Origin: Verrucomicrobiota bacterium
Lineage (GTDB): Bacteria > Verrucomicrobiota > Kiritimatiellia > SS1-B-03-39 > UBA6053
Direction of reading: 5' to 3'
NCBI GenBank assembly: GCA_020831635.1
Contig: JAFIGC010000008.1
Span: forward strand, 1-64,000
DNA: 64,000 nucleotides
The position numbers and the translations under genes were made by a program. Every line of letters starts with the position of its first letter. The first letter of the stretch is position 1. Shown here in pieces: positions 10,923 through 41,960 of this stretch. A model generated the notes under the pieces. The model ran no database searches and was not told the DNA's origin. It worked only from the letters and a program-made list of their open reading frames with translations.

Positions 10923-13900
10923 TCAGGGCACCCGTAGAATCCAACGGGAGATATACATGGACGGAAGGTAAGCGAGGATGTAAACGACGAGCCATCCGGA
11001 CAGCAGCGGAGGAAAGGTGAAGCGTTCCACCGGCTGCCAGAAGACATCCCCGCCCCGTTCGAGGCTGCGGGCATAACCGACCCGCATTTCAATCAGCGGG
11101 GTCTCCCCCTTTCCTGAAATGACCTGCATGGGAGGACGGCTTGGATCCAAAATCTCTCGCGGCTCGGGAGGGGATGCGGGCCCCAAAACCACCGCGGATG
11201 CCAGTTCCTCACCGGTGGCCGTCCGCAGGCGGATCGGAAAACGGCCTTCCACCTCCTCGGGTGGATAGACAATCCATGCCATTTCCATGGGCGAGAGCCC
11301 CCGGTCGAGAAAACCGCGCAAATCCGCGAGCATCGCCTCGCGGGCCTGCATGGCCGCGGCCTGCTCCTCCCAAGTGCTCAAATGCGAAAAATCGCTCCGC
11401 CGACTCCAGCGGCGGTGAAGGGCCTCCAAGGTGGCGCGAACCGGGGGATTGGCTCGGGTCACACCCTCCGCCACCATCCAATTTTCCGGCAGGCCTTCAA
11501 GATCAACCGTCCCGGTGTATTCGCCGTCCACCGTTGCCGACACATAGACGGTGGACTGGGCGGGAGCGTTGCGCCAGATGGGTTCGACCCGTTCGGGGAA
11601 CCAGAAAAACACCAGCAACATCGGCCCCAACAAGACCGCCAAGGGCACAAAGGAGGCCATGAGGTTGCGGTGGGTCACCTTGGAGGACAGGGCCGCGGCC
11701 TCTTTGCGGTGGGGATGGTCCGCGGGCAGGGGTTTCACATAAGCCCGCAGGCCTTTCACCCGCTTCATGGCCTCGCGCAAGCGGGGCGTATCGGTCAAAA
11801 GCCGCTGACCTGCCATGCAAAGAAAGCCAAAAAAGACCGCAGTGAACGCAACCATAAGCGGAGCGCCCAAACGCGCCACCAACGGCAGCAGCAGATGATC
11901 AATGATTCGGGTGACCGGCAACTGAACCCAGGTTTCTGGCAATGCGTAATAGACTGCGAAAAAGAAAACCCAGATGAGCAAAAAGCGATCCCGCAGCGCC
12001 CCGGCTTTGAATTCCTTGGGCCCGGCGACGGGCGGAACCAACGCGCGGGGAATTTCCGCGCTTTCGTCATCCGCCCCCGGGTCATCCTCGTCTCCGGCGC
12101 CGCGAATCACCGCGCCGCGGCGCCCATCGACCCGAATTACCTCCCCTTCCGCGAACAGTCGGGTGGCATGGGGAATGACCACGGCGGGCAAGCCCATTTC
12201 ACGGGCCACGACGGCTCCGTGTGACAGCGAGCCGCCACATTCCAACACCAGACCCGCCGCACCCACGAACAAGGGCGTCCAGTTGGGGTCGGTGCTGGGG
12301 CACACCAGCACATAGTCTTTGCCCAACTCCCCGGCTTTTTCGGGACTGTGTACGATACGCACCGGCCCCTCGCGGAAGCCGTCGCTGACCGCGAGCCCGG
12401 TCAGTCGGTCGCAGCCAACGATTTCAGGGGGTTCGCCGAGGGCGTCAAGGCTCTCGGCATCCAAAACGGCAGGCAGGTTGAACCGCGCCTCCGCCTCACG
12501 AATGCGGCGGCGCTGTTCAAGCAGATGCAGGGGGGCAAATCCGGTTAGCAAGGCGTCGTGGAGTTCCCCGCGCCTCAGCAGGCAGATATCGTCCGACACA
12601 TCGAGTCGGCGGCGCACCTCCAGCACCAAGTCCCGCAGCAGGTCGTACCCCAGCATGAGGGCGTGTTTTCCGTCCTCGCGGAAACGGGCATAGCGGTGAA
12701 CCAAGGCAATTCGGGTGTCCAACTCCTCCACGAGTTCGGGGGACAGCATGGCGGCGAGTTCATCACGACAGCGCTTGGCGGATTCGGCCTGAAGTTGGTG
12801 GCGCCGCATGGGCGGTTCTCCTTCCGCGAGGCGGCGAGCCATGTCCCGCACCTCTTCCGGACGCTCGCGCCAGCGGGGGACGGCGAGATCGAACTCCGAC
12901 GGGGCGCGGTGCCCGAAGCGTGTCAGCCATTCTTTCAGTCGGGCCTCGTCTTTGCCGGCCTCGTAAAGCATCTGGGTGGATTGCAGGGTGAGGTCGGGGG
13001 GGCCGCCCCCGGACAGCTTGCGCAGGAGGGTTTCGGGGTCCTCATCCCAAATCTGCTGTTCCAGAAAATCACGAAGCTGTTGCAGGACTTGGGTGACGAT
13101 CAGACTGGGGAGCAGGGTTTGCGGGGCAAATTCGTCCAGCACCCGCTTTTCGCGTTCGGCCCAAAGTTCCCGCCACTCCTTTACCGTCAACACCTGGAGG
13201 TCGCGCTGTTTTTCCTCTTTTACCCAAGCTTCGAATTCAGGCAACAGCTTGCTTTCGTAGGTACGGTCGAAATCAACGGCAAGTTTGTCCAGGATTTGGC
13301 TGACCGCCCCGAGGCGCTTGCCTACCTTGTACAGGTCCATGCGGGAGCCGGAAGGAATGGTGGGCGGTTCCTGGGAGGCCCCCGGGTTTCGGCGCAACAG
13401 ATCCACATCGTATTGAAAGGGAAAGTTCTCGAAAAACATGTCCGAGGCCCGACTGAGATCCATGTGGATGCGCCCGGCAATCCGGTCGAGAAATCCCTCT
13501 CGGGTCACCTCGTCGGAGGGGACGAAGCCCACATGGCGATAGAGATTGCCGAAACCGCCGGCACCGCTCATAAATCGGGAAATGATGTCCCAGGAAAGCG
13601 GGGTGGGATGCGGCAGGGTTTCCCCGAGGTTGTGGGGCACCCAAGGCCCCCGTCCGGCCTTCAGCCCCTCACGGATTTGCTCTCGGGTGGTCGTAAGACA
13701 AGCTTCGTAGGCTTCGATCTGTTCCAGAGTGGTGATGGCCCGGGACTGGAGCAGATAGAGTTTGCCGTCCGCGAAAGCCCATTCGATGTCTTGGGGACGG
13801 CCATAATGACGTTGGACTTCGCAACCCAATTGCCATAGGGCCAAAATCTGGTGGGAATCCAAACAGGCGATGCCCTGACGTTCCGCCTTTGTTGCCGAGG

Positions 13901-14588
13901 CTTCCGCCCCGGAGACAGGGGAAATGGTCGTGGCCTTGCTGCCGATCACCGAATGCAGGACACGTCCGTTCTGTCGGTCCAACACAAAGGTATCCGGTTG
14001 CACCTCGCCACTGACCACGCTTTCGCCTAGCCCCCAACTGGCCTCCACCAGCATTTCTCCCAGGGTATCGCCGCTGCCGCCCCGGGGATTCACGGTAAAG
14101 AGCACCCCGGCGACCTCCGCCGCCACCTGTTCTTGTACCACCACCCCCATGGCAACCTGATCGGGACGGAGACCCAAACGTGCCAGGTAACTGCGGGTGC
14201 GGGGGGAGTCCAAACTGCTCCAGCACTGGAGAATCGCCGCCAACAAGGGTTCCTCGTCCCGCACGTTCAAAATGGTTTCGTACTGGCCTGCCATCGAGGC
14301 GTCTTCGCGGTCCTCGGCGGTAGCGGAAGAGCGAACCGCGACCGTGGGGCTTCCCATATCGCGGTAGGCGCGGCGCACCTGGTTCGCAAAGGCCTCCGGC
14401 AATGCCTTTCCTCCGGTTTCACGGATTGCATGGGCATAAGCCCGGGTGGTCAGGACAAAGCCGCCCGGCACCGGGAAACCCGCTTGGATCATCCGGGCCA
14501 GATTGATGGCCTTGCCGCCGACCTGTTCGGGTTCGTGGCATTGGCGGAGCGGCAAGAGGTGCATGTGTGCGTCCGTGGGTTCCCTCAT
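10923..14588 (-). CDS. PEP synthase / rifampin phosphotransferase-like protein with C-terminal membrane domain
   Basis: 1221 aa; N-terminal PEP/pyruvate-binding (GGKAINLARMIQAGFPVPGGFVLTTRAY), swivelling His domain (LECGGSLSHGAVVAREMGLPAVVIPHATRLFAEGEVIRVDG), then several TM segments. Confidence 0.85.
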   Translation of the reverse strand: MREPTDAHMHLLPLRQCHEPEQVGGKAINLARMIQAGFPVPGGFVLTTRAYAHAIRETGGKALPEAFANQVRRAYRDMGSPTVAVRSSATAEDREDASMAGQYETILNVRDEEPLLAAILQCWSSLDSPRTRSYLARLGLRPDQVAMGVVVQEQVAAEVAGVLFTVNPRGGSGDTLGEMLVEASWGLGESVVSGEVQPDTFVLDRQNGRVLHSVIGSKATTISPVSGAEASATKAERQGIACLDSHQILALWQLGCEVQRHYGRPQDIEWAFADGKLYLLQSRAITTLEQIEAYEACLTTTREQIREGLKAGRGPWVPHNLGETLPHPTPLSWDIISRFMSGAGGFGNLYRHVGFVPSDEVTREGFLDRIAGRIHMDLSRASDMFFENFPFQYDVDLLRRNPGASQEPPTIPSGSRMDLYKVGKRLGAVSQILDKLAVDFDRTYESKLLPEFEAWVKEEKQRDLQVLTVKEWRELWAEREKRVLDEFAPQTLLPSLIVTQVLQQLRDFLEQQIWDEDPETLLRKLSGGGPPDLTLQSTQMLYEAGKDEARLKEWLTRFGHRAPSEFDLAVPRWRERPEEVRDMARRLAEGEPPMRRHQLQAESAKRCRDELAAMLSPELVEELDTRIALVHRYARFREDGKHALMLGYDLLRDLVLEVRRRLDVSDDICLLRRGELHDALLTGFAPLHLLEQRRRIREAEARFNLPAVLDAESLDALGEPPEIVGCDRLTGLAVSDGFREGPVRIVHSPEKAGELGKDYVLVCPSTDPNWTPLFVGAAGLVLECGGSLSHGAVVAREMGLPAVVIPHATRLFAEGEVIRVDGRRGAVIRGAGDEDDPGADDESAEIPRALVPPVAGPKEFKAGALRDRFLLIWVFFFAVYYALPETWVQLPVTRIIDHLLLPLVARLGAPLMVAFTAVFFGFLCMAGQRLLTDTPRLREAMKRVKGLRAYVKPLPADHPHRKEAAALSSKVTHRNLMASFVPLAVLLGPMLLVFFWFPERVEPIWRNAPAQSTVYVSATVDGEYTGTVDLEGLPENWMVAEGVTRANPPVRATLEALHRRWSRRSDFSHLSTWEEQAAAMQAREAMLADLRGFLDRGLSPMEMAWIVYPPEEVEGRFPIRLRTATGEELASAVVLGPASPPEPREILDPSRPPMQVISGKGETPLIEMRVGYARSLERGGDVFWQPVERFTFPPLLSGWLVVYILAYLPSMYISRWILRVP

Positions 14589-16315
14589 TCCCCCGCCCGC
14601 CCTTCATACGCGCGCAATCCCCCGGTTTCGCTGCCCACAAACACACGTCCATTGGAGACCGTGGGAGAACTGATGGAAAGTCCCATTTCCCCGGGTCGGT
14701 CCGCACGATTGATGTAGTGTTCCTCAACCAAAGTTCCATCCGCGGCATCCAGCACCCGCAGGTACCCGTCCGAACTGAGCGAATACACGTGGGTGTCCAT
14801 CAACGCCACACCCGCGAGCATCAAAGCGTTTCGTTCCAAGTGGTGTTCCCAGAGGACACGCCCCTTGTCACGAACATCGAACGCCACCAGCATTCCGCTC
14901 CGGCGCCCCTGGCGCGGGGCGCTGCGCACCGGAGCAACCCCGACGCCATTGTGAACCGCAATGGGTCCCAGCACGCTGTCCGGCATGTCCAGGGACCATC
15001 GGACCTCCCCGGTGCTTTGATCCAGGGCCAGGATCACCCCCGCGGGGTTGGGATCGGCAAAGACAAAGTCACTGTTTCCACCGCCGATGAGGACCAAGTC
15101 ATCCACCAGCGTCACCGCCGCCACGGCGGGATATGGGGTATCGGTTCGCCAGAGCAGGCGTTCAAGACCTTGGGCCGCCAGTTCCTCATCCGTGCCTTCC
15201 ACCCGCAAGGCGACCACGGCCTCCCCGTTAAAACCAGATCCGATGTAGGCGATCCCATCTTTGATGGCGGGCGAGCTTTCGGGGTCATTCACCTGATATT
15301 GCCAAAGTTCCTCGCCGGTGCTGATCCGCACCGCGAAGACGTAGCCCGGGTGCCCCACCCCTTCGGGATCCCCTTGGGGCTTGCGTTCCGGGCCGACTTC
15401 AATGGCCCCGGCGCCCACCACGACAATGTCGCCGTAAATCGCGGGGGAACTTTCAATGTGAATGGGCGTGCGAACCGTCCACACCACCTCACCGGTCTCG
15501 GTGTCGATGCAGATCAATTCACACTCCGTATCGGGGTGGAGTCCCTGTCCAATGATCAGGTGACGTCCGTCGGCGGTCAAGGCCGGTGAGCTGAAGAAGC
15601 CCTTCATTTCCCGTCCGGTATTGTCCAAATATTGCGCTTCCCAGAGCAGGTCCCCGGACGCACTCTCCACGGCAAACACCATGCCATAGGTACTGGGGGG
15701 ATCAAGCAATGTCGAAGCACCATAGACGATGCCGTCATTCTCGATCGGCGAAGTCAAAATCATGGCGAATTCCTCTGGATGCACCTCCCAATCCAGCGAA
15801 AGATTCAATGGGGCGGGACCGCCGTCATGTCCGCGCCGAGCGGCATCCCTGCGGAAAATAAAGCCCAGATGCGCCTCTGGCACGTCATCAGCCGCGAATC
15901 CGACCGCCACGTCCCCCGCATCGGCGGCCGCCGGTTGACGGCTTTCTCCCTGCGCCTGTCGTTGCTCATTGCGGAGAATTTGCAAGGCGACCCGGGTCCA
16001 GTCCGTTTGCGTCCCGGCGCCATCCGTTTGAATCGCGGCCTGCCGTCCCACCGCCGGCGGGGCCTCACCACCCGCCCCCATCATCCACTGAAAGCCAAAA
16101 TACCCCCCCGTCACCACCAACAACAATATCAACGGCACGTGCGGCTTGGCCCTGCAAACCCGGAATAGTTCCTTGGGTTTGAACAACAGGGCCACCGCAC
16201 TGGCCACGGCGGCAATCGCCGCTGGCAGCAAAGCCGCACCCGTGTTCACCAATACCGGGATCACCCCCAGAGAGGGAAGACTACTGCAAATAGAATTTTC
16301 CATAATCGTCTCCAA
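14585..16315 (-). CDS. Membrane-anchored PQQ-like beta-propeller protein
   Basis: 576 aa; N-terminal hydrophobic segments, repeats such as VFAVESASGDLLWEAQY, ICIDTETGEVVWTV, LALDQSTGEVRWSL; overlaps downstream CDS by 4 bp. Confidence 0.85.
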   Translation of the reverse strand: METIMENSICSSLPSLGVIPVLVNTGAALLPAAIAAVASAVALLFKPKELFRVCRAKPHVPLILLLVVTGGYFGFQWMMGAGGEAPPAVGRQAAIQTDGAGTQTDWTRVALQILRNEQRQAQGESRQPAAADAGDVAVGFAADDVPEAHLGFIFRRDAARRGHDGGPAPLNLSLDWEVHPEEFAMILTSPIENDGIVYGASTLLDPPSTYGMVFAVESASGDLLWEAQYLDNTGREMKGFFSSPALTADGRHLIIGQGLHPDTECELICIDTETGEVVWTVRTPIHIESSPAIYGDIVVVGAGAIEVGPERKPQGDPEGVGHPGYVFAVRISTGEELWQYQVNDPESSPAIKDGIAYIGSGFNGEAVVALRVEGTDEELAAQGLERLLWRTDTPYPAVAAVTLVDDLVLIGGGNSDFVFADPNPAGVILALDQSTGEVRWSLDMPDSVLGPIAVHNGVGVAPVRSAPRQGRRSGMLVAFDVRDKGRVLWEHHLERNALMLAGVALMDTHVYSLSSDGYLRVLDAADGTLVEEHYINRADRPGEMGLSISSPTVSNGRVFVGSETGGLRAYEGRAGE

Positions 16316-16544: not shown

Positions 16545-17570
16545 ATGCCAGCCTCCATCAAAGAGATTGCCAAAATGACCGGATATTCCGCTCAAACCGT
16601 GAGTCGGGTCCTGAACAACAATGGAGCGGGACATCGCAAATCGACCTGCGATGAGATTCTCAAAGTGGCGGAGTCCATGGGATATCGTCCCAACGCGTTG
16701 GCGCGGGCCATGGTGCTGGGAAAATTCGGCAGCATCGGTTTGCTGCTGAGCACCAATGCGGGCCGAAGTTATTTGCCCTCTTCTCTTCTGACCAGCATCC
16801 ACGACACCCTCGCGGACCAAAACCTGCATCTGACCATCGGCCGTTTACCCGATGAAAAATTGGTCGACTCCGATTACATGCCCAAAATGCTGAGGGAATG
16901 GACATGTGACGGGTTTCTCATCAACTACACCGATCACGCCCCCAAAGAGATGACCGACTTGATCCACCGCAGTCGGCTCCCTTCCATCTGGATTAACAAC
17001 AAGCGGGAAGATGACTGCGTGCACCCGGATGATTTTGGCGGGGGAAAACTGGCCGTCGAGTACCTGCGCACCCAAGGGCACACCCGCATAGCCTACCTGC
17101 ACTACCGCTGGGGAGAGAGTCTGGAGGACGCCCATTACAGTGTGGTGGACCGAATGGAGGGCTACAAGGCTGGCATGCGGGAGGCCGGTTTGGATCCTTG
17201 GATACTGACCAAGGGGCACAAAATCCATCAGGAAGCCCGTGTGGAGACCTGCAAGGAATGGCTTGTCCTGCCCGACCGCCCCACCGCGGTCATCACCTAT
17301 ACCAGCCCGGAGTACATACAGATCGCCGGGTTGGAATTGGGGATGAAATGGGAGGAGATCCCGCAGGTACTGAGTTTTTCAGATCGACCGGTGAGCATTG
17401 CGGGACGCCCGCAGACCATTGTTTATCTGGACCAATACCTCCTGGGCCGCGCGGCGGTAGAGAGCCTATTGGAAAAAACCCTGAACCCGGAACAAAAACT
17501 CGCTCCAAAGAAAATTGAGTATTGCGTCAATATCGGTCCGGATAAAGTGTTCCGCCTACCCCCCTCCTGA
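16545..17570 (+). CDS. LacI family transcriptional regulator
   Basis: 341 aa; N-terminal HTH (ASIKEIAKMTGYSAQTVSRVLNNNGAGHRKSTCDEILKVAESMGYRPNALARAM) and periplasmic-binding-like domain. Confidence 0.95.
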   Translation: MPASIKEIAKMTGYSAQTVSRVLNNNGAGHRKSTCDEILKVAESMGYRPNALARAMVLGKFGSIGLLLSTNAGRSYLPSSLLTSIHDTLADQNLHLTIGRLPDEKLVDSDYMPKMLREWTCDGFLINYTDHAPKEMTDLIHRSRLPSIWINNKREDDCVHPDDFGGGKLAVEYLRTQGHTRIAYLHYRWGESLEDAHYSVVDRMEGYKAGMREAGLDPWILTKGHKIHQEARVETCKEWLVLPDRPTAVITYTSPEYIQIAGLELGMKWEEIPQVLSFSDRPVSIAGRPQTIVYLDQYLLGRAAVESLLEKTLNPEQKLAPKKIEYCVNIGPDKVFRLPPS

Positions 17571-17601
17571 ATAGACGGGTCTACTCCAAACGAGTACTTG
17601 G

Positions 17602-18612
17602 TTAGGGTGTGGCTCCATGCTTGAATGCTTCGGGTTGCAACAATTCGAATACAGACGGCATCTTGCCATCCACCTTGAATAGCGACCAATGCGTCACAAA
17701 ACGGGCCGGACGGTTTGGGGTCAAGCGAACAGCGGGCGACATTAATTCGAGTTCCACGTAATTATCCTCTTCGCGACCCTGATGATAGATTTCCACGGGA
17801 GGGGTCTGGAACGCCGGGTCCGCGATCAACGCCCCTTCCCGCAATGTGCCGCGTTGAATCCACAACGTGTCGCCCCACCTTGCGGCCAGGGCGGTTTGAG
17901 GACTGTCAAACGAGACCTTGGTGGCCCCCAACGGCTGAAACCCGACCCCCAACAAACCGGGCGTCAGCCTGAAAATCGGCATGGAAGACTGACGTTGGTT
18001 GGTATATCGAAATCCTTCGGACGCCTCGTTTCCGGGATCCCGCAACACATACGCTTGGTCAGGTGGATTCACTTGGGCAACGGACCACACCGCCAGTGCC
18101 TCCGCGGTTTCATCGGTTTTCTCCAGGGTCTGGGTGATTTCCAGTGAGCCCTCCCCAGCGTACCGATACCTGCGGACCACCCGAAGCGCGAACCCTTCCC
18201 AGGCGGGGCCCTCCGTGACCAGGCTGCGTCCCTCATCCTCCACCCGCGCCATGTGAGGTTCCGACATCCAGCTCGGACGCGGCGGCCAGCGGCGTTCGCT
18301 GTATTGCCCCCAAATTTCATGCGGGCCCACCAGCGTTTTGTCCCCGCCCCAGTTGACAAACCCTTCGCGCGGGGATGTCGCGTCCAACCCGGACGCATTC
18401 CAGATCAGGTTTTCTCCCTCCATCCATCCGTAGAACATCACCCGCCCGGCGAGTTCCGGCACAATAACCGCGCGGGTGAGGCCATCCGTGATTTCATAGG
18501 CGGGAAAACCCAGATACACGGTTTGGAAAATCCCCCCCGATTCCGCCAAAATGCGGAAGGGTTGCGTGAGCAAAACGAGACAACACAAGGCGGGAACGAA
18601 TCCGTGCTTCAC
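17602..18612 (-). CDS. DUF4380-like secreted protein
   Basis: GTG start at 18612 overlaps upstream stop (GTGA); signal peptide KHGFVPALCCLVLLTQPFRILA; GRVMFYGWMEGENLIWNASG...WGGDKTLVGPHEIWG. Confidence 0.7.
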   Translation of the reverse strand: MKHGFVPALCCLVLLTQPFRILAESGGIFQTVYLGFPAYEITDGLTRAVIVPELAGRVMFYGWMEGENLIWNASGLDATSPREGFVNWGGDKTLVGPHEIWGQYSERRWPPRPSWMSEPHMARVEDEGRSLVTEGPAWEGFALRVVRRYRYAGEGSLEITQTLEKTDETAEALAVWSVAQVNPPDQAYVLRDPGNEASEGFRYTNQRQSSMPIFRLTPGLLGVGFQPLGATKVSFDSPQTALAARWGDTLWIQRGTLREGALIADPAFQTPPVEIYHQGREEDNYVELELMSPAVRLTPNRPARFVTHWSLFKVDGKMPSVFELLQPEAFKHGATP

Positions 18613-20636
18613 GAGACCTCCAATTCGCAGGGTTTGGGTGAGGACGAGCTGGGACACCAAAAGGATTGGTCCAAAGAAATTCCATCCAGGCTCAAAGCTT
18701 CCCATCGCACTTCTTCCGGCGTGACCCGTAGCAAACCGAAATGATGGGCGGGCACATTGCAAACCGAGAACGGGTTCTGTATTTTGCCCTCAATCGGCTG
18801 ATAAACACGGCCGCCTCCTCCCGCGGAAATGATTGACGTGAGTCCGCCGGGGAATTCGGAGCGCTCGTACCCGTGTTCGTGTCCGTGAAACATGGCGGTG
18901 ACCCGATGTTGGACCGCCAGGGGAAGTATGTATTGACGGCAGGCGCGCATGGCCGCTTCAAGTGGCAGACCATCGGCGGCCAGTTGCCCATGACCGGCGG
19001 AGGAATAGGCGGGATAATGATTGGCCAGAAAAATGAACGGCGTGGAAGCATTTTTGAGCGTCTGATCCAGCCAACGGTGCCCTTCACTTTCCGGTGCCCA
19101 GTCCAGCGCGCCATCAATGCCGATCCAGGTGGCCACACCCAGGGTGAGCGCCCAATTCGGCGTTCCCGACGGGGAGAGGAACAAGTGATCAAAAAGAACG
19201 GAATCATCTTCGTGGTTTCCCCGTACAGCCAGGGTGGGCGTTGTGCGGAAGAGGTCGGGCACACGTCCAAAACATTCCGAATCCCATCGGCAATCCTCCC
19301 GTCCGTTGGAAGTCAGATCTCCGAGTAACAGCAAGATATCCGGGCGTTGATCCGCGAGCGCGGCCATCACCCGTTCAAAACGTTCAGGACTGGGACTGGG
19401 ATCTCCGACCACGCCCACCGTATAACCGGATTCAGGAGAAATCGTACGCAACCGCCCTTGGACAAGCTCCCTTCCCTCCACATTCCGCGCGGGGCCTTCC
19501 CCGGCGCGCAGGCGGTAGCCAATTTTTTGCCCGGGGCGGAAGTCCCCGACGCTGAAACCGTGTAACACCCCCGGGGGGGACTCCACGCGAATTCCCCCCT
19601 CCACCTCCAACACCACCGGGAGGATTCCCGTGGTGCGACAAGCAAGGGTGAAAGTATGCTCATCCGCCCACCCGAGCACAGGGCCCGTTTGCAAGGTGAC
19701 ATCCTCCGCCCGAAAAGCCGTGAGGTCGGAGGGAAGCTGTATGTCCGGAAGTTCTCCGCTCCGGCAGAACCTCCGCAACGCCAGGGTATGGAGCACATCG
19801 AAGGCCTTCTTGCCCGCCCACTCACGGGTAAGCCGGTTGGCACCGTTCCGAAGAAGTTTCGCGGGAATGCCGGACCAATCCCGATAGCGCATGTCTGCAA
19901 GCGGACGCGCCAAAGACCGACCATTCAACTGCGGGGGATGGTCTCCGGCGTTCACCAACGTAAGAGAAGTGAAGCGTTCCGGATCCGTTACCTCAAACAA
20001 CCGCCTGGCACTGAACCGAAGCCTTTCGGGGGGCGTTCCTTTTTCTTTCACCGTGGCTTCACTGACCACCCGCCATCCGGTGGAACCGGCCAAAATCCGC
20101 GCACCCACCAGATGCCATCCAGGATCAAGAGACACCGAATATAAATGCGCCACATCCTGAAGCTGGAAATGATTGCCCTTTTGCAGCGTATCTCCCAGTG
20201 GCCGCCCATCCATCCACCATTGCATCCACCAGTCCGCACCCGCATGGATGCTCAAGCGCCTTGCTTCATCCAGATGAAAGCGACCGAAGACATAGGCGGC
20301 GGAGCCTGCCACCCCATCGCCAAAGATCCGCGACAAATCCAACACGCCATTGGCATCCGGCGCCACATCTCTCCCGGGGAGTTCTTTGTTTTGGACGTGG
20401 ATCGACTCCGGCCAGTCGCTTGAAGCCGGGTCCACTTCCAAGAGGCAGGGCTCCATCGTCCATGGCCCATGAGCCACAAACTTGCCATATAGTCGCCAGG
20501 AAACGGGCCAACCTGAAAACTGCCGCCAAGCCCCCGGCAGATCCCGGCAGCAGTCCAGCGGGTCCGCAAACCATTCCCCGGAAGCTCCCCCCCGGATCAG
20601 TTGGTATTCCCACGCACTGTTTTTAATCAGATTCAA
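18609..20636 (-). CDS. Calcineurin-like metallophosphoesterase domain protein
   Basis: 675 aa; VVGDPSPSPERF, LLLGDLTSNGRED, AVRGNHEDD, FLANHYPAYS, MFHGHEHGYER motifs. Confidence 0.85.
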   Translation of the reverse strand: MNLIKNSAWEYQLIRGGASGEWFADPLDCCRDLPGAWRQFSGWPVSWRLYGKFVAHGPWTMEPCLLEVDPASSDWPESIHVQNKELPGRDVAPDANGVLDLSRIFGDGVAGSAAYVFGRFHLDEARRLSIHAGADWWMQWWMDGRPLGDTLQKGNHFQLQDVAHLYSVSLDPGWHLVGARILAGSTGWRVVSEATVKEKGTPPERLRFSARRLFEVTDPERFTSLTLVNAGDHPPQLNGRSLARPLADMRYRDWSGIPAKLLRNGANRLTREWAGKKAFDVLHTLALRRFCRSGELPDIQLPSDLTAFRAEDVTLQTGPVLGWADEHTFTLACRTTGILPVVLEVEGGIRVESPPGVLHGFSVGDFRPGQKIGYRLRAGEGPARNVEGRELVQGRLRTISPESGYTVGVVGDPSPSPERFERVMAALADQRPDILLLLGDLTSNGREDCRWDSECFGRVPDLFRTTPTLAVRGNHEDDSVLFDHLFLSPSGTPNWALTLGVATWIGIDGALDWAPESEGHRWLDQTLKNASTPFIFLANHYPAYSSAGHGQLAADGLPLEAAMRACRQYILPLAVQHRVTAMFHGHEHGYERSEFPGGLTSIISAGGGGRVYQPIEGKIQNPFSVCNVPAHHFGLLRVTPEEVRWEALSLDGISLDQSFWCPSSSSPKPCELEVS

Positions 20637-23055
20637 TGGAATTCCTTTTCAGTTCAATCACAAAAACCGGCTGGGTGTTGGGGATTTGCAGCCCCCCCTC
20701 CTCCAGACGACCGCTCGCAATCGGTTGCATGTGCCAATCATAGAAGGTGTAGCGCATGCCTTTGAGCGCCGGCGAGCGGATGAGGCCGCCCACCCGCGCA
20801 TGCAATACGGGAAGTTCCCCCCTCACGGTTGGGTTTTCCGAATCGCCCAGAGAGAAACCGGTGTTGAAACTGGTGCTCACCAGGGACAGCGAAATGTGAG
20901 AGGCTTCGGCAAAGGGCTTTCCGTCCAGGCTGTGCATGGCGAAGGAAATATATTTACTCTCCTCGGTGATCGGCTCGAAGATCCCTTCGTCATTGCGGAT
21001 TTCAACATCCGTGAGGCTCACGCCGTTCTCAAATTCCAGCCGATGGCCCACCCGGTTCAATAGACCGGTGAAGGCAACCGCAGCCGGCGCGTCGAAGCGA
21101 AGAAATCCGTTTTCCCAATCAAAAATCATCTCGTCGGTGGGTCGGTACGGATTATGGGAAATCCGGTCGGCGTTGGAAATGTGAGGCCCGAGGATCGCAT
21201 CTTCCCGCAGGTTGGGATCAATCCAAAGTCTCACGCCATGTTCATAAGTGGTGGGGAGCATCGCCATTCCCTTTTTACCATAGCTCCGACCGTAGGGCAT
21301 GGTGTCGGGGTCATATAGGGACTGGGCGCCGTAGAGGAAGATCGTGGGCCGGGGGGCGGGTTGCAGGAGACCGGAGCGGAACATATGTCCGGCGGCGCGC
21401 ATCATGGAACTTTGCACCTCGTCGTAGGTGTAGTGATACCCCTGGGGATGCCCTCCGGTGCTAATATCCATGGGTTTGTCAAAGGGGCGGTCTTCCAGGG
21501 CGACCTGATGCAGGCTGTTGTCGCCAAAATAATGCCAGCAGACGAAGTCCCAGTCTTGAATCATGGCCAACGCGGCGAGGCGCAGGGGGTAATCGGCACG
21601 GTATTTGGCGGGCTGTTGAATTTGGGTCTCGTAGACCAGATATGGCATGCCTGGGGCTCGGTTATGTTCAAGCCAAGGAACTCCCTGTGCAATCCCCGGG
21701 GGTTTGAGAAGCCAGTTGTTCCAACGACCCTCGTTGGGTTCCACGGCACGGGCTTCCAACTCCGCAAGCCGACGGCCCAATTCGTCGGTGGCCAGATCCA
21801 CATTGGCCCACCGATCCCGCCCCACCCCGTTCACATAGGCGTCATGCGCAATTGCCTCCCCGTGCTGGAGCATGTACTGCACTTGGATCCGATATCCGAT
21901 TCCGGTGTCGAGTATCACGGGCGCCCGGCGCGTGCTTCTTCCCAAGGGCTTGATGGCCGCCATTTCCTTCTGCTTGTGTTGGATCAACATTTCGGTGAGA
22001 AAACGGAGCACATCGCGGCCGCGCTGGTCGGAAAAATCCTCCCGGCTGTATTCCTGCTCAAGAGCCTCCAGGGCCGCGAGGGCGTGGGCGCCCGCATCGT
22101 TGATGCTGATCTGTGCCGGGGAGGGTTTGTCCATGGGTGCGAACAATACCGTGCCCTGATCCAGAGATTCCCCCGGGAGCAGGCCTTGCCACGCGGCGGC
22201 CAGTGCGGCCTCGTCTCCGTAAGTTTCCCGAAGAAAATCGTGCCAATGGTCAATCAACTGATTGCGGAAAAAAGCGGGGAGTTTTTGCCAGGAGCCACCC
22301 AGCATGCGGCGGATCCACCACTCCTCGTTGCTCAATTCCCAGACCGCGAACACCGGATCGTCCGCCCAACGCAATCCGGTATAGGGATTGTAGTGGTTGG
22401 CAACCCGTTGCATGCGTTGAATGCCGAGGGCTTGAATCCGCGGATCCCAAACCCGGGCGGGATGGTTGCGAATGCGCATACGCCCCCCGGCCTCTTCCAA
22501 GGCCGCAATCCAATCTCCGGCCGTCTCGGGATCCTCGATCACATCCACATCCCCGGGACGCGCGTCCCCCACTTGGTTCATCCCGGCCATCCAGACCTTG
22601 AATCCCCGATCCCCCGCACGCGCCAGGAAGTAATTCGCGTCATCCATCGCCGATCCGTCCCCGGGCACAAAATCGACATCCTCTCCTGAAAATCCGGCCC
22701 AAAGTCTCATGGCGTTAAAGCCCAAGTCATCAAAGCGGTCCAGCAGAATCTCCGTGCCTTTTCGAGCCGTTTCCACCTTGCGGGCCACTTCCTCCGGGTT
22801 GTCCTCGGGAAGCGCCCCGGCATTCGGGTACAAACGCCCGATCACCGCCCAATACCTCTGGCGTTCCCCTTCACTCCACAACTGCCCATCCCGAACCGTG
22901 ACATAGCGCTCTTCGGGGATCGACGCGGGATCGACAGGCGCGACTTTGGGTTCCATCGCCAACAAGAAAGGTCCAATCATCATTGCGGTCATCGCGGCCA
23001 TCGGAAGCAACTGTTTGAAGTTGAACGCATCGAATATGTTTCGTTTGAGTTTCAT
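20623..23055 (-). CDS. Secreted glycoside hydrolase-like protein (cellulase/GH5-like TIM barrel)
   Basis: 810 aa; RFDDLGFNAMRLWAGFSGEDVDFVPGDGSAMDDANYFLARAGDRGFKVWM and AVWELSNEEWW (acid in NE-like motif); signal-like N-terminus. Confidence 0.65.
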   Translation of the reverse strand: MKLKRNIFDAFNFKQLLPMAAMTAMMIGPFLLAMEPKVAPVDPASIPEERYVTVRDGQLWSEGERQRYWAVIGRLYPNAGALPEDNPEEVARKVETARKGTEILLDRFDDLGFNAMRLWAGFSGEDVDFVPGDGSAMDDANYFLARAGDRGFKVWMAGMNQVGDARPGDVDVIEDPETAGDWIAALEEAGGRMRIRNHPARVWDPRIQALGIQRMQRVANHYNPYTGLRWADDPVFAVWELSNEEWWIRRMLGGSWQKLPAFFRNQLIDHWHDFLRETYGDEAALAAAWQGLLPGESLDQGTVLFAPMDKPSPAQISINDAGAHALAALEALEQEYSREDFSDQRGRDVLRFLTEMLIQHKQKEMAAIKPLGRSTRRAPVILDTGIGYRIQVQYMLQHGEAIAHDAYVNGVGRDRWANVDLATDELGRRLAELEARAVEPNEGRWNNWLLKPPGIAQGVPWLEHNRAPGMPYLVYETQIQQPAKYRADYPLRLAALAMIQDWDFVCWHYFGDNSLHQVALEDRPFDKPMDISTGGHPQGYHYTYDEVQSSMMRAAGHMFRSGLLQPAPRPTIFLYGAQSLYDPDTMPYGRSYGKKGMAMLPTTYEHGVRLWIDPNLREDAILGPHISNADRISHNPYRPTDEMIFDWENGFLRFDAPAAVAFTGLLNRVGHRLEFENGVSLTDVEIRNDEGIFEPITEESKYISFAMHSLDGKPFAEASHISLSLVSTSFNTGFSLGDSENPTVRGELPVLHARVGGLIRSPALKGMRYTFYDWHMQPIASGRLEEGGLQIPNTQPVFVIELKRNSIESD

Positions 23056-23074
23056 AAATTTACATTTCCCGCAT

Positions 23075-25024
23075 TTACCGCGCTTGAATTCTCAGGGTTT
23101 GATGGCGGGGCCCCTCGGGGGCGAGATCCACCGGACGGGAGGTTTGCTCCCCGTGGGAAAAAGTCACATCCACCCGATGCGGTCCGGGTTCCCGGACCGT
23201 GAAAATCACTTGTTGCGGCCCGCTGGAGCCCACGTTCACATTTCCTGCGATCTGCCGCGCGGCCACCAAGGTGTCCGACGCATCAAAGAGACGTACCCAG
23301 GCCCCCGTCACCCCCAGCGGCGCGTCCAAAGCCACGGTCAGAGACCGGGAGGAAATGCGTTTGCGCTCATCCAGCACGGTGCCCGCCTCCGGCACGTCGG
23401 GACGGTGGGCCGGCGTCTCATTCGTCAGCAGCCAAAGGCTGCCGTCCCGTCCGCCCACAAGCAGGTCATTGGCGCCATCCCCGTTCACATCCCCGGCAGC
23501 CGCCCCGGTTTTCACCAGGTTGTTGTAAATATGACGGGGCCAGAGCCCGGACTCATACTTTTCAGGCATCATAAAGGAGGCATATCCGCGATTATTCAGA
23601 AAGAAATCCGGCGAACCGGATGTCCCGCTGAGTGAATAAATATCCAGGGTGCCGTCCATACTCAAATCCTCCACCAGTGCCGCGTACAGGCCCGGTACAT
23701 CGTCCTGAATCTCATTGCCGTAGCGGGTGATATCCACGAGGCGTCCATCCTGGTTTTCCAACAGCCATTTCGTATCGTCCACCAACACATACACCGCGTT
23801 TCGACCGGGATCCACCACGGGGGCCATGGAGGCGGTGGCAAATTCAAACTCGTCAAATTCTCCGCCCAACGTTTGCGAATCAAATCCCTCCGCTCCATTC
23901 AGCAAGAGATATCCGGGGCCACTGAGCCAGAGGATATCGGTGCGGCCATCACCGCTCCAGTCGCCCAACTCAAAATATCCGCCGGCTCCTTCCAAATTGA
24001 CCACTCCCAACGCTTCGGCGCGCTCGAGAAAGGTCTCGCCCTCCACGTCATCCGCAAAAGAATTGAAATACAGTCTCAATCCACCTTCTTTGAGGGACAC
24101 CACCACATCGGGAAAACCGTTGGCATTCAAATCGGCAAACGCCGCGCTGCGCACCCCCGCCGGATCCACGTCGAGAAGATCGCTTTTCTCAAAAACCCCC
24201 TGATCGTTCTGCAGGAAAATCACCCCGTCAAGCAACAGATCCGCACGACCATTGCCCTGGACGTCCGCCAAGGACACGGACCGGAAACCCACCTCTCCGA
24301 CCCCAAGGGCTTCGCTTTTTTCCTCGAATTCACCCTCCTCGGTCTGGAGATACACCCGGGATCCGGCCCCGCTGGTGGCAATCAGGTCGAGCCGTCCATT
24401 TCCATTCACGTCAAAGATCGCCACCCCGCCCACCGGGGCCTCGAGTTGATCGATTTTGCGGTCGGAAAACCGGGTGAAGGGGGTTGCGGGGTAATAGGCC
24501 CGGTCCGTCGCCAGATCCCGTGCCATTTGCCATAACATGGCCGTCTGCCCATTAAAGACCGCAAACATGATGTCCTCGCTCCCCGGATCCACCCCCTCGT
24601 CCGCGTTGCCCTGCAGTTCCCATTGCTCCGGAGACGCGTCCGTTCCCATCTGCGCCTTGTGCCAACTGCCGCCCCCGACGTAATAGAGCACCCGATTTTG
24701 CATGCGACGCCCGCCCCGTCCGGCAAAGACCACGATGGACTGGTCTTTCTGCAGGGAGAGAATCTCGGTCAAATGCCCCCGATCCCCGGTGGTCATCGTG
24801 ACCCGTTCATAGGGAAGTTCACCCTTGGAAAATTCATCAATCCGAAAGACCACCCGCATCTCGCGGGCATCCACCTCTTCGATGGTGGCCTTGAACACAT
24901 GGGAATACAGATCATGGAGATGACGGGGTTGCATGGCCGGATTGATCACCGCATGGAGCCGGGGCGAAATAATCGAAAAGACAGTCAATAGAGGCAGAAT
25001 TCGAAACAGGTTGTTTTTTTTCAT
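23075..25024 (-). CDS. Secreted FG-GAP/VCBS repeat protein
   Basis: 649 aa; repeated FDVNGNGRLDLI, ADVQGNGRADLLL, ADLNANGFPDVVV, GDWSGDGRTDILW, GDVNGDGANDLLVGGRDG. Confidence 0.9.
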   Translation of the reverse strand: MKKNNLFRILPLLTVFSIISPRLHAVINPAMQPRHLHDLYSHVFKATIEEVDAREMRVVFRIDEFSKGELPYERVTMTTGDRGHLTEILSLQKDQSIVVFAGRGGRRMQNRVLYYVGGGSWHKAQMGTDASPEQWELQGNADEGVDPGSEDIMFAVFNGQTAMLWQMARDLATDRAYYPATPFTRFSDRKIDQLEAPVGGVAIFDVNGNGRLDLIATSGAGSRVYLQTEEGEFEEKSEALGVGEVGFRSVSLADVQGNGRADLLLDGVIFLQNDQGVFEKSDLLDVDPAGVRSAAFADLNANGFPDVVVSLKEGGLRLYFNSFADDVEGETFLERAEALGVVNLEGAGGYFELGDWSGDGRTDILWLSGPGYLLLNGAEGFDSQTLGGEFDEFEFATASMAPVVDPGRNAVYVLVDDTKWLLENQDGRLVDITRYGNEIQDDVPGLYAALVEDLSMDGTLDIYSLSGTSGSPDFFLNNRGYASFMMPEKYESGLWPRHIYNNLVKTGAAAGDVNGDGANDLLVGGRDGSLWLLTNETPAHRPDVPEAGTVLDERKRISSRSLTVALDAPLGVTGAWVRLFDASDTLVAARQIAGNVNVGSSGPQQVIFTVREPGPHRVDVTFSHGEQTSRPVDLAPEGPRHQTLRIQAR

Positions 25025-25060
25025 GGAAGGGCTCTTGGTTGGAATGTTGAAAAAAGGTGA

Positions 25061-25074
25061 TGAGAATATTTACA
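25061..25074. promoter_or_regulatory. Weak operator-like site TGAGAATATTTACA
   Basis: 9/14 to consensus; about 37 bp upstream of the FG-GAP gene. Confidence 0.3.
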
Positions 25075-25845
25075 TCAAAAACCGGAGGATGCACCCCCAT
25101 CCACGGGCAAGGTGATTCCGGTGATAAATTTTGCCGCGGGGGAGGAAAGATATACCGCCGCGTGGCCGATGTCATCCGGGTCGCCGAAGCGGGCCAGATG
25201 GGTGCGTTGCAAAATCCGCTGTTCGCGGGCGGGATCCCCGGAAAGGGCCTGGCGCAACATGGGGCTTTCAATCCAGCCGGGGGCAATTCCGTTCACGCGC
25301 ACCCCCAGAGGCGCGAACTCGCTGGAGTACGCGCGCACCATGCCCAGCAGGGCCGATTTGGCGGCGGTGTAGGCAATCACCCGCGGCATGCCCATCAGCG
25401 CCGTCATGGAACAGATCAGCAGGATGCTCCCCTCCCCCCGCTCTTGCATCGATGGAGCCAAGCCGCTTATCAAGGCGTGCGCGCCGGTCACATGGGTGCG
25501 CAAAACGGTCTCCAACTCATCCATGGAGGTGTTCACCGCGTCTTTTTTCAAATGAACCCCGGCGTTGCTCACCAAAATATCCACGCCCCCATGGGCGTCG
25601 AGGACACCGGCGACCAAGGAGGCGATGGACACCTCGTTTTGAAGGTCCGCCGTGAACCAGACCGAGCTCCCGCCAAGGGCTTCCGCGGTCTGACGCAAAG
25701 GTTCCTCGCGTCGTCCCACCAGAATCACCTTCGCGCCCGCGCGCACAAAACAGGCGGCCATGCCCGCGCCCAGTCCGGTGCCGCCACCTGTGATAAGTGC
25801 GGTTTTTCCTTTCAAATCAAAGGCGGTTTGCGTCTCGTTTAACAT
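25075..25845 (-). CDS. SDR family oxidoreductase
   Basis: 256 aa; [18 protein letters not shown] motif (VSNAGVHL), YTAAK motif; overlaps upstream CDS. Confidence 0.92.
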
Positions 25846-27053
25846 TTGGGGTCTCCGTCGTCCTTGCGGGAGGACGCGTGCTGGTGTTTATAGGGAATTA
25901 GATATTCGTGGTGCCCAAACGCCTCGGGTTTGCTGGGTTCGCCGGCGGCCACTCGACACAACAGCTCCACCAGCCGCCGCCCCTCTCCGTCCAGACTGCC
26001 GCGTCCGTGCAGGGGACCGCTGGCATCGAAATCCATGTCCTCGGACATACGCCGGTAGGTGTCGGCATTGCCGGTCACCTTGATCAGCGGCGCGATCGGT
26101 GAGCCAATGACACTGCCCCGTCCGGTGATAAACAGCACCACATGGCAACCGCAGGACACCAGGGCGGTGATGCCCTCGGAGTCGTTGGGATTGGTGTAGC
26201 CAAACTGCATGAAATGCTCGTCCGGCACCGTGTCCAGCAGCCAGAGTCCGGGATGGGGCAGACGAGTGGAACTGGGAATCACCCCTTGAATCGGCTGACT
26301 GCCGCTTTTGGCAAAGGCCCCCAGACTTTTCTCCTCGATGGTGGTTAGTCCGCCCGCGAAATTTCCCGGCGAGGCGGAGTACTGCCGTACCGCGCGGCAG
26401 TAGGCCTCCGCCTTGTCGTAGCCCGCCGCAAGTTGTTCCCGGGCCTGTTCATGGACGCCCCGGGACACCATCAATTCTTTGAGCCCGATCATCTCCACCA
26501 GTTCTTCGAAGATCGCGGTGCCGCCTGCGTCCACCAACTGATCAAAACACCGGCCCACCACCGGATTGCCGGCCAAACCGGAGGTGCTGTCCGATCCCCC
26601 GCACTCCGCGCCCACCACCAGATCCGCCAACGACATCTCGCAGCGGGGGATCTGGAGCAAGGCTTCGCGGGTGGCGGCCAGCCATTCCTTCCCATGCAGA
26701 ATCGAGGAGCGGGTTCCCCCCAAATCCTGGACCAGAAAATGATGGGCCAACCGACCGCTTTTCCGCACATTGTCGGCAATTTTCTCCGCCTGGGTGTACT
26801 CGCAACCCAGACCGATACAGAGGACCGCCCCCACGTTGGGATGGGTGGCCAGACTCAGGAGCATCCGCACCGCATAGGGATTGTCGTAGCAACCATGAAA
26901 GCCGATGACCTGGGTGTCCGGTTCGTTGGCGGCCACCTTTTCGGCCACAAAACGGGAACACTCCACGGTGTAAACCACCAGGGTGAGATTGCGGATGCCT
27001 TTGCGTCCGTCCCTCCGGGGATATCCTAGCCAAATTGTGGGAACTTCAGTCAT
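25839..27053 (-). CDS. UxaA family dehydratase, large (C-terminal) domain as separate subunit
   Basis: Start at [52 protein letters not shown] motif of altronate/galactarate dehydratase family. Confidence 0.88.
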
Positions 27054-27393
27054 AGGATGTATCCGTGGGCGCGCCGGTGTGGGCGTCGAGTGATCCGCTG
27101 CGCTCGTCCAAGCGACTCCTGCAATTGTGCAAATGCACCCACTCGCCGGAGCGAATGAGGCGGGTGGCCAACCCGATGCATCGGCCATACCGCAGCACCT
27201 CTTCTCCGGGGGCAAGATCACAAAGCGCGATTTTGTGACCGTTCGGGATGAGGGTGAGGGCGTTCAGGGTGTAAACGTCGCCATCACCGCGCAACTCGAC
27301 GCCCCCCCCATCCGGGACCTCCGCCAAGACCACCGCCATGTTGTCGGCGGCGTGCACGCGAAACGCGGGCGAAAGGGTTTCAGAGGATGCCAT
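27046..27393 (-). CDS. SAF-domain small subunit of UxaA-type dehydratase
   Basis: 115 aa; [17 protein letters not shown]...[30 protein letters not shown]; overlaps the large subunit ORF. Confidence 0.85.
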
Positions 27394-28090
27394 AGCTGCG
27401 AAACGCCTCCGTTGCGGTCATGCCGTTTTCGATGGCCTTGAGGACCACTTTCTCTCCGCGCGCCTTTTCCAGCGCCGCTTGAATCACTTCGGTTACCATC
27501 GCGGCGGGGATGATCAGCACCCCGTCCATGTCCCCGAACACCAGGTCTCCGGGCTCGATCCATACCCCGCCCAATTCGATGGGACAGCGAAAGGCCGCGA
27601 CCGCGACCCGCACCGACGAATCCTGGGCATAGCGGCCCCAACTGAACACCGGCCAATTCTGCGCCAGCACCTGCGGGGTGTCCCGGTGATAACCGTCAAT
27701 CACCGCCCCAACCCCGCCGCGGGTGCGGGCGGTGGCCGTGAGCAACTCCCCCCAGTAGGCGGATCGATGGGAACCGCCCCCGGCGACCACCACCTCGCCC
27801 GGACGGATGTCATCCAGTGCCTCGGTCAGCAGGCCGAAAGGCTTCGCCTGGGGACCGTCCACATCCGCATACCGGAACGGCATCGCCCGACCCGCAATCT
27901 TCATGGGCGCCCGCAGGGGCTGCACCGGTTGGGGCAGGAATTGATGGTAGCGGCCCATCGCATCCAGAATATCCCCGACCACCGGGGTGTATAATTGACC
28001 GGTGAGGAGGGCGAAAAGTTCTTCGTCGGAGTTCCAAGTCGGGGCGGTCATATCTGCATTTTTACACATTTCGGGGTTTTGAAAAAGCAT
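27380..28090 (-). CDS. RraA family protein (HMG/CHA aldolase-like)
   Basis: 236 aa; [51 protein letters not shown]. Confidence 0.88.
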
Positions 28091-28094
28091 TCAC

Positions 28095-30029: not shown

Positions 30030-30104
30030 TTCATTCCTATTTCGATGGGTTTCATGGAACCATCCGGAAAAAAGTTTCGGATGCATTCAAGTTGACAATG
30101 TTAA

Positions 30105-41100: not shown

Positions 41101-41960
41101 CCCTGCGCCCACACAATCGCATGGCCCAACACGTCCTGCTGGAGGGCGGATTCAATGTCAACAGCACGTCCGTTGATGTCTGGAAGGCCATGCTTTCCGG
41201 TTTGTCCGGTCAAGGAGCCATTCGCGTGAATGCAAACGGACAACTGAACCTCGAACCTGAAAACGACGGTATTCTTCCCTTCGGGAGCCATGGCGCTTAC
41301 CTCGGGGGGACCTCGCCCGGAGAGGCTTACAGCGGACATCGTCCCCTGAATTCCCAAGAGGTGGACCAATTGGCCAACGCCATTGTCTTGGAAATCCAGG
41401 AACGCATCGCCGCCAGGGGCGGACCGTTCCTCTCCATGGCGGAGTTCGTGAACCGCCGCCTGATACCCGGTGGCGATGCCCACGCGTCCCAAGGAATGGC
41501 GGGCGTACTCCAAGCCGCGATCGATCGGGTGGACGCGCTCAACCGCGACGTGGAAGATGACTGGGGAATCGAAACGAATCTCGACGATTTTTTTCGCCAC
41601 AATGGGAACTTGGATGAAGTCCGCGTGCCCTATGTCGCCCCGGAAGCCTTCGGGGAAACCACCCGCCGCGGGATGAGCCGACACTTGGATCAACGCGCCA
41701 TTCTTTCCGCCATCGGCGCCGCCGCCACCGTCCGCTCCGACACCTTCCGGATCCGCGCCTACGGGAGCAATATCGGGGACCCGAACACCCCCGGGGCGGC
41801 GGAAGCCTGGTGCGAGGCCATCGTCCAGCGAATCCCGGACTTCGTGGACCCCGCCGACGATGCCGCATCCTCCTTGGCAAACGTGAATCCAATCAACCAA
41901 CGCTTCGGAAGACAGTATCGCATCGTGTCCTTCCGATGGCTGAACCCCGAAGACCTGTAA
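38142..41960 (+). CDS. Large pseudopilin-like protein, resembles Verru_Chthon cassette protein A
   Basis: 1272 aa; KRKGSALLVTLLVVSLLLLMVLAFSTYVRMELRN prepilin-like N-terminus. Confidence 0.75.
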   Translation: MITLTEASGEIQKRKGSALLVTLLVVSLLLLMVLAFSTYVRMELRNVSNHQAARKAQAHAVLGLHLGLARLQETAGPDQRATATASTVPHPDASAGNPRPGTGYWSGVWQAGPSQRSDGREPQPVLLDWLVSGRETATSSETVTPGQYQSGLQSDGQTVRSDEVVLVGSGSLGHTGNGSGVSPELYVVAPRVHAAEDLAYAYWVGDENVKARINLHDDAPDNTVDALRRFFAPKSAPVNAMADLESLPRFDDRWERLVSVPGLSLMYPDAAPWLKRNFHQASLHAASVLSDPLRGGLKRDLSLAFELEDAQFNRSEFALAMSPGDPVRTNINQSFSNKAVFAERDPALYQFDSGANPNVDYLAGPTWHYLRDFYRLYKEADPSTGALSSRPMSPNRQASGNSNPNSFIKSFTVPNIGYDNDSNALRQRHGTQTKVLPTGVEVHPEFQRLILLFGLAEINGVVHLVVEPMAVVHNPYNVPVEMSGMMGTWTNLDQAIRVETFYPGAGDGNEITPHEPEYNGNFWAGGGMELGQIIHGEGSDTTFTFLLTESGTGSSGPVRFEPGEIKYFTTGLSGTEVVSPGDVKIFRLREGLNPNTLFQGYGYAYPLEYTRRLPVGPPWFQHGPMVMPPGGTVFGRLIPTPGPHGGTRVDQPGIGSQGDLAGGPREFGGLHLYHIRQNQLNDNFENLFFDTQGSPLYIRPHTQRHMIPYADLRELRLWPSELVGGQFWRSGQPKRRFNEAELQRVMYFAANDLYLKPINDDQTRSSNINPFEVFTHHNPRAPIGVPWESGGRGVNGTRIVHTWNAHNRHLEDGRPDGVIGTGLDGRRGLWGDGLFAQEGGTESVVLYETPRQPMLNMQQLGQANLSFWSHQPMFALGNSRASPYIERDRVWHGSPVTGNVVSFQFDNAYLLNEALWDGYFFSGVTGWNGPNAPSDALGTALENFVDDPASIPFANPRMRLLQREVAHPGDLGLDLSEYSAPQSPASPLRPHNRMAQHVLLEGGFNVNSTSVDVWKAMLSGLSGQGAIRVNANGQLNLEPENDGILPFGSHGAYLGGTSPGEAYSGHRPLNSQEVDQLANAIVLEIQERIAARGGPFLSMAEFVNRRLIPGGDAHASQGMAGVLQAAIDRVDALNRDVEDDWGIETNLDDFFRHNGNLDEVRVPYVAPEAFGETTRRGMSRHLDQRAILSAIGAAATVRSDTFRIRAYGSNIGDPNTPGAAEAWCEAIVQRIPDFVDPADDAASSLANVNPINQRFGRQYRIVSFRWLNPEDL
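38143..38156. promoter_or_regulatory. LacI-type operator-like palindrome TGATAACGTTAACA overlapping the predicted start codon
   Basis: 13/14 to consensus. Confidence 0.7.

Follow-up and report, generated by a model that had tools for sequence, protein, structure and literature searches.

A Rph-type dikinase fused to a DUF106/EMC3-like membrane domain and its propeller operon in PVC bacteria

A stretch of 64,000 nucleotides from a Verrucomicrobiota bacterium (GenBank assembly GCA_020831635.1, contig JAFIGC010000008.1, genome G000), hereafter called the window, was analysed. It holds the gene P0001, whose product combines a Rph-like dikinase with a membrane domain of the DUF106/EMC3 type and which lies in an operon with a membrane-anchored propeller protein. 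We have high confidence in this overall architecture of the phosphotransferase-membrane fusion and its operon. By sequence, the protein joins two known superfamilies, RPH-like and DUF106/EMC3, with the Pfam cut-off reached by stand-alone relatives only. A tentative reading of its function, to which we give somewhat less than an even chance, is a trans-envelope group-transfer complex, in which the insertase-like domain would handle a membrane-associated substrate and the Rph-type enzyme would phosphorylate it. A sequence-only reading of the same stretch had proposed a dikinase fused to a multi-pass membrane domain. The fusion is real; it represents one version of an operon of several genes, which that reading had not seen.

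Integrity of the fused gene

P0001 is an uninterrupted open reading frame (ORF) of 1221 aa with an ATG start (10923-14588, minus strand). At its start it shares 4 nt (ATGA) with the stop of the propeller gene that precedes it, and both genes are therefore likely co-transcribed. Pfam identified PPDK_N (ATP-grasp) with an E value of 3.6e-75 and PEP-utilizers, the phospho-His domain, at residues 757-825 with an E value of 1.9e-19; the latter contains H790. The C-terminal third had no Pfam match above the cut-off. According to hydropathy, membrane segments begin after residue ~857-869, and the helices of the AF2 model fell into the same region. The ATP-grasp and His domains and the membrane-embedded C-terminal part named by the sequence-only reading were thus recovered.

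Relatives were gathered by scanning public genomes with an alignment of homologues, which yielded 79 loci. Together with the window and a second cassette of the same genome (G000:C90), the survey comprised 81 loci. These were collected via dikinase peptides with two conserved motifs, which confines the sample to dikinases bearing those motifs. The ORFs of all loci were classified using hidden Markov models (HMMs) built in this analysis. This HMM scan detected 25 complete fused genes and ~4 more that were truncated at contig ends. The congeneric genome G003 encodes a protein of the same architecture, and the ~24 other fused homologues originate from public genomes of the Planctomycetes-Verrucomicrobia-Chlamydiae (PVC) group. 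Since both halves also occur elsewhere as separate neighbouring genes, an assembly artefact or a chance read-through could have joined them, and the sequence-only reading had named an assembly error as the consequence of missing homologues. This explanation is refuted by the 25 full-length fused ORFs from independent assemblies, which form a single clade, by 62% identity between P0001 and the G003 protein over residues 10-1221, and by the conserved helix at the junction.

The membrane half belongs to the DUF106/EMC3 type

The profile of the fused membrane domain had one convincing match in the PDB, the archaeal YidC-like protein MJ0480 (5c8j), with an E value of 8.1e-8. The profile of the stand-alone family matched the same protein with an E value of 1.2e-5. 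MJ0480 is a structurally proven DUF106 member, and homology to it indicates membership of this family. YidC structures were absent from the matches of both profiles up to an E value of 10, and YidC proper (60KD_IMP, PF02096), with five transmembrane (TM) helices, was not among the families listed for 62 members. In the ~40 split relatives, among them G000:C90, the dikinase gene is immediately followed by one for a membrane protein of ~280 aa. These stand-alone members exceeded the curated cut-off of PF01956 (EMC3_TMCO1) in four genomes, and matches at E<=1 were obtained for 33 of 37, the best at 1.7e-9. With the fused domain alone, seven of 25 members matched PF01956 (best 9e-4), and the protein of the window itself did not. 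The full-family profiles of fused and stand-alone members aligned along their whole length in hhalign, with a probability of 99.4% and an E value of 6.6e-21. When only two and six sequences were used, the E value was 9.7e-6 and the probability 83%. The assignment to the archaeal and endoplasmic reticulum (ER) DUF106/EMC3 type, and not to YidC proper, was borne out by these comparisons. It refines the loose likeness to DUF106 and the Oxa1 superfamily noted in the sequence-only reading. DUF2207_C was considered for the C-terminal half and rejected, since it was seen in one member only, with E values of 0.004 and 0.001, under the cut-off.

The AF2 model of the membrane domain had a pLDDT of 90.3. 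It comprised helices at residues ~857-882, 889-907, 909-931, 934-951, 959-1001 and 1198-1218, with a beta domain between the last two. Alignments showed conserved positions in the membrane core, namely Q-R-x-x-T-D, W-x3-R, P and W-x3-Y. A three-TM core with a cytosolic helical hairpin is common to this domain, to DUF106/MJ0480 and to EMC3/TMCO1 (PF01956). In contrast to these families, the domain is bacterial and is coupled or fused to a phosphotransferase, and its TM2 and TM3 are separated by an extracytoplasmic domain (~110-190 aa; ~170 aa in P0001). The fused form has an additional N-terminal TM helix.

Hydropathy and alignments indicated three membrane segments in stand-alone members and four in fused members, the extra one exactly at the junction. 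The net charge of the TM1-TM2 loop was +6.6 in fused and +7.6 in split members, and that of the loop after TM2 was -3.2 and -3.7, respectively. Hydropathy, charge pattern and AF2 helices agreed with a three-TM core, a cytosolic hairpin and an inward C-terminus. If the hairpin is cytosolic, as it is in the Oxa1 superfamily, the N-terminus of the stand-alone protein would lie outside, and the fused form would therefore need exactly one more helix for a cytosolic dikinase. The single extra helix in the fused forms, the positive inner loop and the negative outer loop place the dikinase in the cytosol. The presence of just this helix argues strongly for a functional fusion.

An ordinary Rph-like small-molecule kinase, for which the EMC3-like domain serves only as a tether, is quite unlikely. 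A divergent dikinase clade without EMC3 partner suggests that the catalytic module can stand alone, but an entire Oxa1-type core with conserved positions of its own, together with the large outer domain, is kept across the PVC group, both as a separate protein and as a fusion.

The enzyme half is a Rph-type dikinase

For the enzyme half, the top PDB matches were structures of the Listeria RPH (5fbs, 5hv1 and 5hv2, all carrying the deposition name phosphoenolpyruvate synthase), which matched in the ATP-grasp region as well as in the acceptor-His region. R637, E638, K641 and H790 of P0001 aligned to residues 678, 679, 682 and 837 of the 5hv2 construct. If the construct numbering is shifted by +12, an offset that we infer and that fits all four positions, these would be Arg666, Glu667, Lys670 and His825 of RPH-Lm. 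Arg666 and Glu667 of RPH-Lm are needed for phosphate transfer to the drug and His825 is the phosphate carrier (PMC4844700). The Arg-Glu...Lys block is retained even in distant clades with other substrates, and distant RPH-like clades were predicted to retain phosphotransfer and to switch substrate (PMC4844700). K26, R86, D267, E269, Q281, R283, R637, E638 and K641 were invariant in 75 homologues, and H790 was invariant in every one of the 75 rows that covers the position. Given this invariance, the enzyme very likely retains its phosphotransfer chemistry; the conserved catalytic residues do not allow its substrate to be predicted. Absence of these residues had been named as a finding that would overturn the sequence-only reading, and they are present.

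That reading had compared the enzyme to phosphoenolpyruvate (PEP) synthase and rifampin phosphotransferase. The likeness to Rph stands, but P0001 is neither of the two enzymes by curated cut-offs. Many NCBIfam models of both matched, all far under their cut-offs. The score for rifampin phosphotransferase (NF041857, RIF_Ptrans_rph) was 324.7 bits with a cut-off of 999, and that for PEP synthase (TIGR01418, PEP_synth) was 281 bits with a cut-off of 739.75. The pyruvate/PEP barrel (PEP-utilizers_C) was absent from P0001 in Pfam. With an ATP-grasp, an acceptor domain and a C-terminal His domain, together with Arg-Glu..Lys and His, P0001 has the features of the RPH-like phosphotransferase superfamily (PMC4844700). 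It shares this domain order and the catalytic residues with RPH and the RPH-like superfamily, including the two-part HpeHI, and differs from RPH by its membrane domain, its propeller operon and its score far under the rifamycin family cut-off. ATP-grasp and phospho-His domains are also common to PEPS and PPDK, whereas P0001 lacks the barrel, ends its enzyme part with the His domain and scores under the family cut-offs.

Two types of ATP-grasp start were seen in alignment A1. Two fused members start in the PEPS/RPH manner (SSATAED..ASMAGQ), and five split members start in the PPDK manner (SGAA.SMPGMMDT) with an insert of ~80 aa. The genome of the window also encodes a third RPH/PEPS-like enzyme, without a membrane domain (G000:C297, 12186-14663, L032).

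Phylogeny and distribution

A tree was calculated for 75 dikinases, in which the fused rows formed one fully supported group. The only 'split' member of this group, L076, is really a fused gene cut by a contig end. Members of the group come from Planctomycetota, Verrucomicrobiota, Lentisphaerota and Kiritimatiellota. The tree is most simply read as a single ancestral fusion with subsequent vertical descent, transfer or both. The fused form was present in the named strain Aporhodopirellula aestuarii and an EMC3-less relative in Zavarzinella formosa.

Among 388 genomes of the phylum of the window, the stand-alone profile matched in 13 and the fused profile in nine, with some genomes in both counts. 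The cassette is an accessory, patchy system. Both forms were present in G000, in G003 and in the genomes of L059/L112 and L083/L125. Since several genomes hold both, the forms are probably not redundant.

Divergent dikinase relatives without EMC3 partner include L088, L134 (Candidatus Poribacteria), L111 and L124. The dikinases of the Poribacteria are also without propeller and lie near other genes. One further locus, L137 (G092:C132, 4389-9204), encodes a remote DUF106-like protein of 243 aa, whose neighbours are a sulfotransferase and two proteins of the arylsulfotransferase type (ASST), without a dikinase. Its layout of group-transfer enzyme, DUF106-like protein and propeller-type protein is alike, with a different enzyme, in this one locus only.

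Operon and neighbouring genes

Among the 77 loci whose contig extends far enough to show a partner, 71 had an EMC3-like one, either fused or in the same locus and then almost always encoded by the adjoining gene. This association was not built into the sample because the loci were gathered by dikinase peptides alone. The gene preceding the dikinase encodes a BamB-like propeller with an N-terminal membrane hairpin in nearly all loci, and in 25 loci the propeller gene is itself directly preceded by one for a secreted FG-GAP protein. All parts of the cassette are present in the window (Table 1). In L126 (3802-6297) and L131 (4447-6948), the FG-GAP N-terminal domain, membrane helices and the PQQ propeller constitute one protein beside the dikinase; no EMC3-like gene was found in these two loci. 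The fusions and the adjacency tie all four parts together. Sequence comparison indicates that the fused and split forms are equivalent.

Table 1 Features of the fused gene and its operon in the window
Feature	Position	Strand	Basis
Fused gene P0001, Rph-like dikinase and DUF106/EMC3-like membrane domain	10923..14588	-	ORF, Pfam, HMM scan of relatives
ATP-grasp (PPDK_N), residues ~20-296	13701..14531	-	Pfam, conservation
Acceptor-binding middle domain, residues ~300-735, homologous to the RPH RIF-binding domain	12384..13691	-	PDB alignment, conservation; PMC4844700
R637-E638-x-x-K641 (aligned to RPH-Lm Arg666/Glu667/Lys670)	12666-12680	-	Alignment to RPH
Swivelling phospho-His domain, residues ~740-832	12093..12371	-	Pfam, conservation, alignment to RPH
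Catalytic H790 (aligned to RPH-Lm His825)	12219-12221	-	Alignment to RPH
Extra TM helix, residues ~857-882, fused family only, none in stand-alone family	11943..12020	-	Alignments, AF2, hydropathy
TM1 (H1) of DUF106-like core, residues ~889-931, invariant Q-R-x-x-T-D region at end	11796..11924	-	Alignment, profile, AF2, hydropathy
Positively charged cytosolic helical hairpin (H2/H3 of Oxa1 superfamily), residues ~932-979	11652..11795	-	Profile, AF2, charge
TM2 (H4), residues ~974-1001	11586..11669	-	Profile, AF2, hydropathy
Extracytoplasmic beta-sandwich-like domain between TM2 and TM3 (h4h5 position), residues ~1009-1179	11052..11564	-	AF2, Foldseek
TM3 (H5), residues ~1198-1218, 'GWL.VY...Y.P.M' motif	10935..10997	-	Alignment, profile, AF2
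Membrane-anchored PQQ/BamB-type beta-propeller (TM hairpin and propeller), directly upstream, 4-nt overlap; conserved partner	14585..16315	-	Pfam, locus survey, structure/profile matches
Divergent LacI-family regulator between cassette and FG-GAP gene; candidate regulator, local only	16545..17570	+	Window annotation
Secreted FG-GAP-repeat protein, same strand, displaced ~6.8 kb from cassette	23075..25024	-	Family and locus survey

The best sequence and fold matches of the partner propeller were BamB and tetrathionate hydrolase, PQQ propellers with which it has fold and sequence in common. It differs from BamB by a TM hairpin in place of the lipid anchor, by its operon context and by having no BamA link. 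In the eukaryotic ER membrane complex (EMC), an EMC3 core is combined with a PQQ-like propeller in EMC1. The likeness of the cassette to this combination of EMC3-type core and extracytoplasmic propeller is striking but is taken as an analogy only. An identity of the propeller as EMC1 homologue was rejected, as BamB and tetrathionate hydrolase matched better. Beta-prop_EMC1_N matched one split member with an E value of 0.0013, under the cut-off. No homology between cassette and EMC is claimed because the propeller is closer to BamB.

Besides FG-GAP, no neighbour family occurred in more than 12 loci, and no receiver, cyclase or regulator recurred. A transmembrane sensor, in which an extracellular ligand is bound by the propellers, their state is passed on through the membrane domain and the dikinase alters the level of a phosphorylated small molecule, as a signal or first catabolic step, is therefore an unlikely function. 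It would agree with the two extracytoplasmic propeller proteins, the coexistence of fused and split paralogues in the same genome, and the LacI regulator and sugar-acid/pectin-type genes near the cassette in the window.

The recurrent neighbours, a CHB_HEX_C protein (12 loci), a GH123-like protein (9 loci) and metallophosphoesterases (5+5), were too sporadic to set a function. The CHB_HEX_C-ended secreted protein of ~530-600 aa was found in L073 (1466-3148), L070 (1711-3297) and 10 more fused-type loci, near the FG-GAP gene and, in several loci, directly upstream of it. In the window, positions 16545-30086 constitute a sugar-acid catabolic neighbourhood with the LacI regulator, an unknown 386-aa protein, a metallophosphoesterase, an 810-aa protein without Pfam match, a short-chain dehydrogenase/reductase, an altronate/galactarate dehydratase, a RraA-like protein and a pectate-lyase-like protein. 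Two more very long ORFs of 1272 and 1241 aa are located on the plus strand (38142-41960 and 48576-52301).

Proposed mechanism

In the proposed group-transfer complex, ATP would phosphorylate H790, yielding AMP, Pi and P-His. The His domain would carry the phosphate to the middle domain by a swinging movement, where R637, E638 and K641 would transfer it onto a hydroxyl group of the substrate, which would arrive from the membrane. The Oxa1-type groove may hold or move this membrane-partitioned substrate, which would be lipid-linked or amphipathic, and the propellers would receive or deliver it outside. The mechanism is supported by the match of the catalytic set to the RPH-Lm residues needed for phosphotransfer, by the profile matches of the membrane domain, by its almost constant association with the dikinase, by the predicted topology and by the union of FG-GAP domain and propeller in L126 and L131. 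It also agrees with the ability of Oxa1-type insertases to scramble lipids (PMC10491306).

Several observations weigh against this mechanism. No pathway context was common to all loci, and six dikinases of the divergent clade were without detectable EMC3 partner. Foldseek of the AF2 membrane-domain model against the PDB returned weak matches of the beta domain only, all with E > 0.1, and no Oxa1 fold; this result speaks neither for nor against an Oxa1 fold because the short membrane core carries little weight in it beside the dominant outer domain. In L138 (G060:C209, 4241-6931), the dikinase middle domain is fused directly to the EMC3-like domain, with no recognised ATP-grasp, His domain or acceptor-site residues and with a propeller gene upstream. 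L138 may be a decaying or catalytically dead copy, or may have a scaffold role without phosphotransfer.

The retention of the membrane part without catalytic domains in L138 would also fit a machine for membrane-protein biogenesis. There, the DUF106-like core would insert or chaperone a client, the propellers would receive it and the phosphotransferase would modify the client or power or gate the cycle. Both Emc3 and Oxa1 act as protein insertases, and the EMC core is able to stand in for Oxa1 (PMC8887752); BamB is among the sequence and fold matches of the propeller. However, the cassette is patchy (13/388 and 9/388 phylum genomes) and not bound to one client gene, the known substrates of Rph-type enzymes are small molecules (PMC4844700, PMC12167813), and the acceptor-site residues of the middle domain are retained. 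Biogenesis is thus improbable, with an appreciable residual chance, and group transfer to a membrane-associated substrate is the tentatively preferred function.

Significance

No description of such a cassette was found in the literature covered by our search, outside of which most subscription journals lay. The papers found assign DUF106 to archaea and relate it to the source of EMC3 and GET1; they describe the number of helices in the core of the ancestral insertase, three or five, as an open question (PMC8887752, PMC7618853). It is conceivable, if doubtful, that the cassette represents a previously undescribed class of trans-envelope machine and the first known bacterial complex of the DUF106/EMC3 type. 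Such a machine would combine an Oxa1-superfamily core with propellers outside the cytoplasm and a swivelling phosphohistidine enzyme driven by ATP, and would phosphorylate a substrate during its entry into, exit from or passage across the membrane. A link to phosphotransfer would give the superfamily a new function. Its conservation makes the operon a source of testable partners, and named strains exist for both the fused form and the EMC3-less relative. A three-helix DUF106-type family across PVC bacteria bears directly on the question of the ancestral insertase core.

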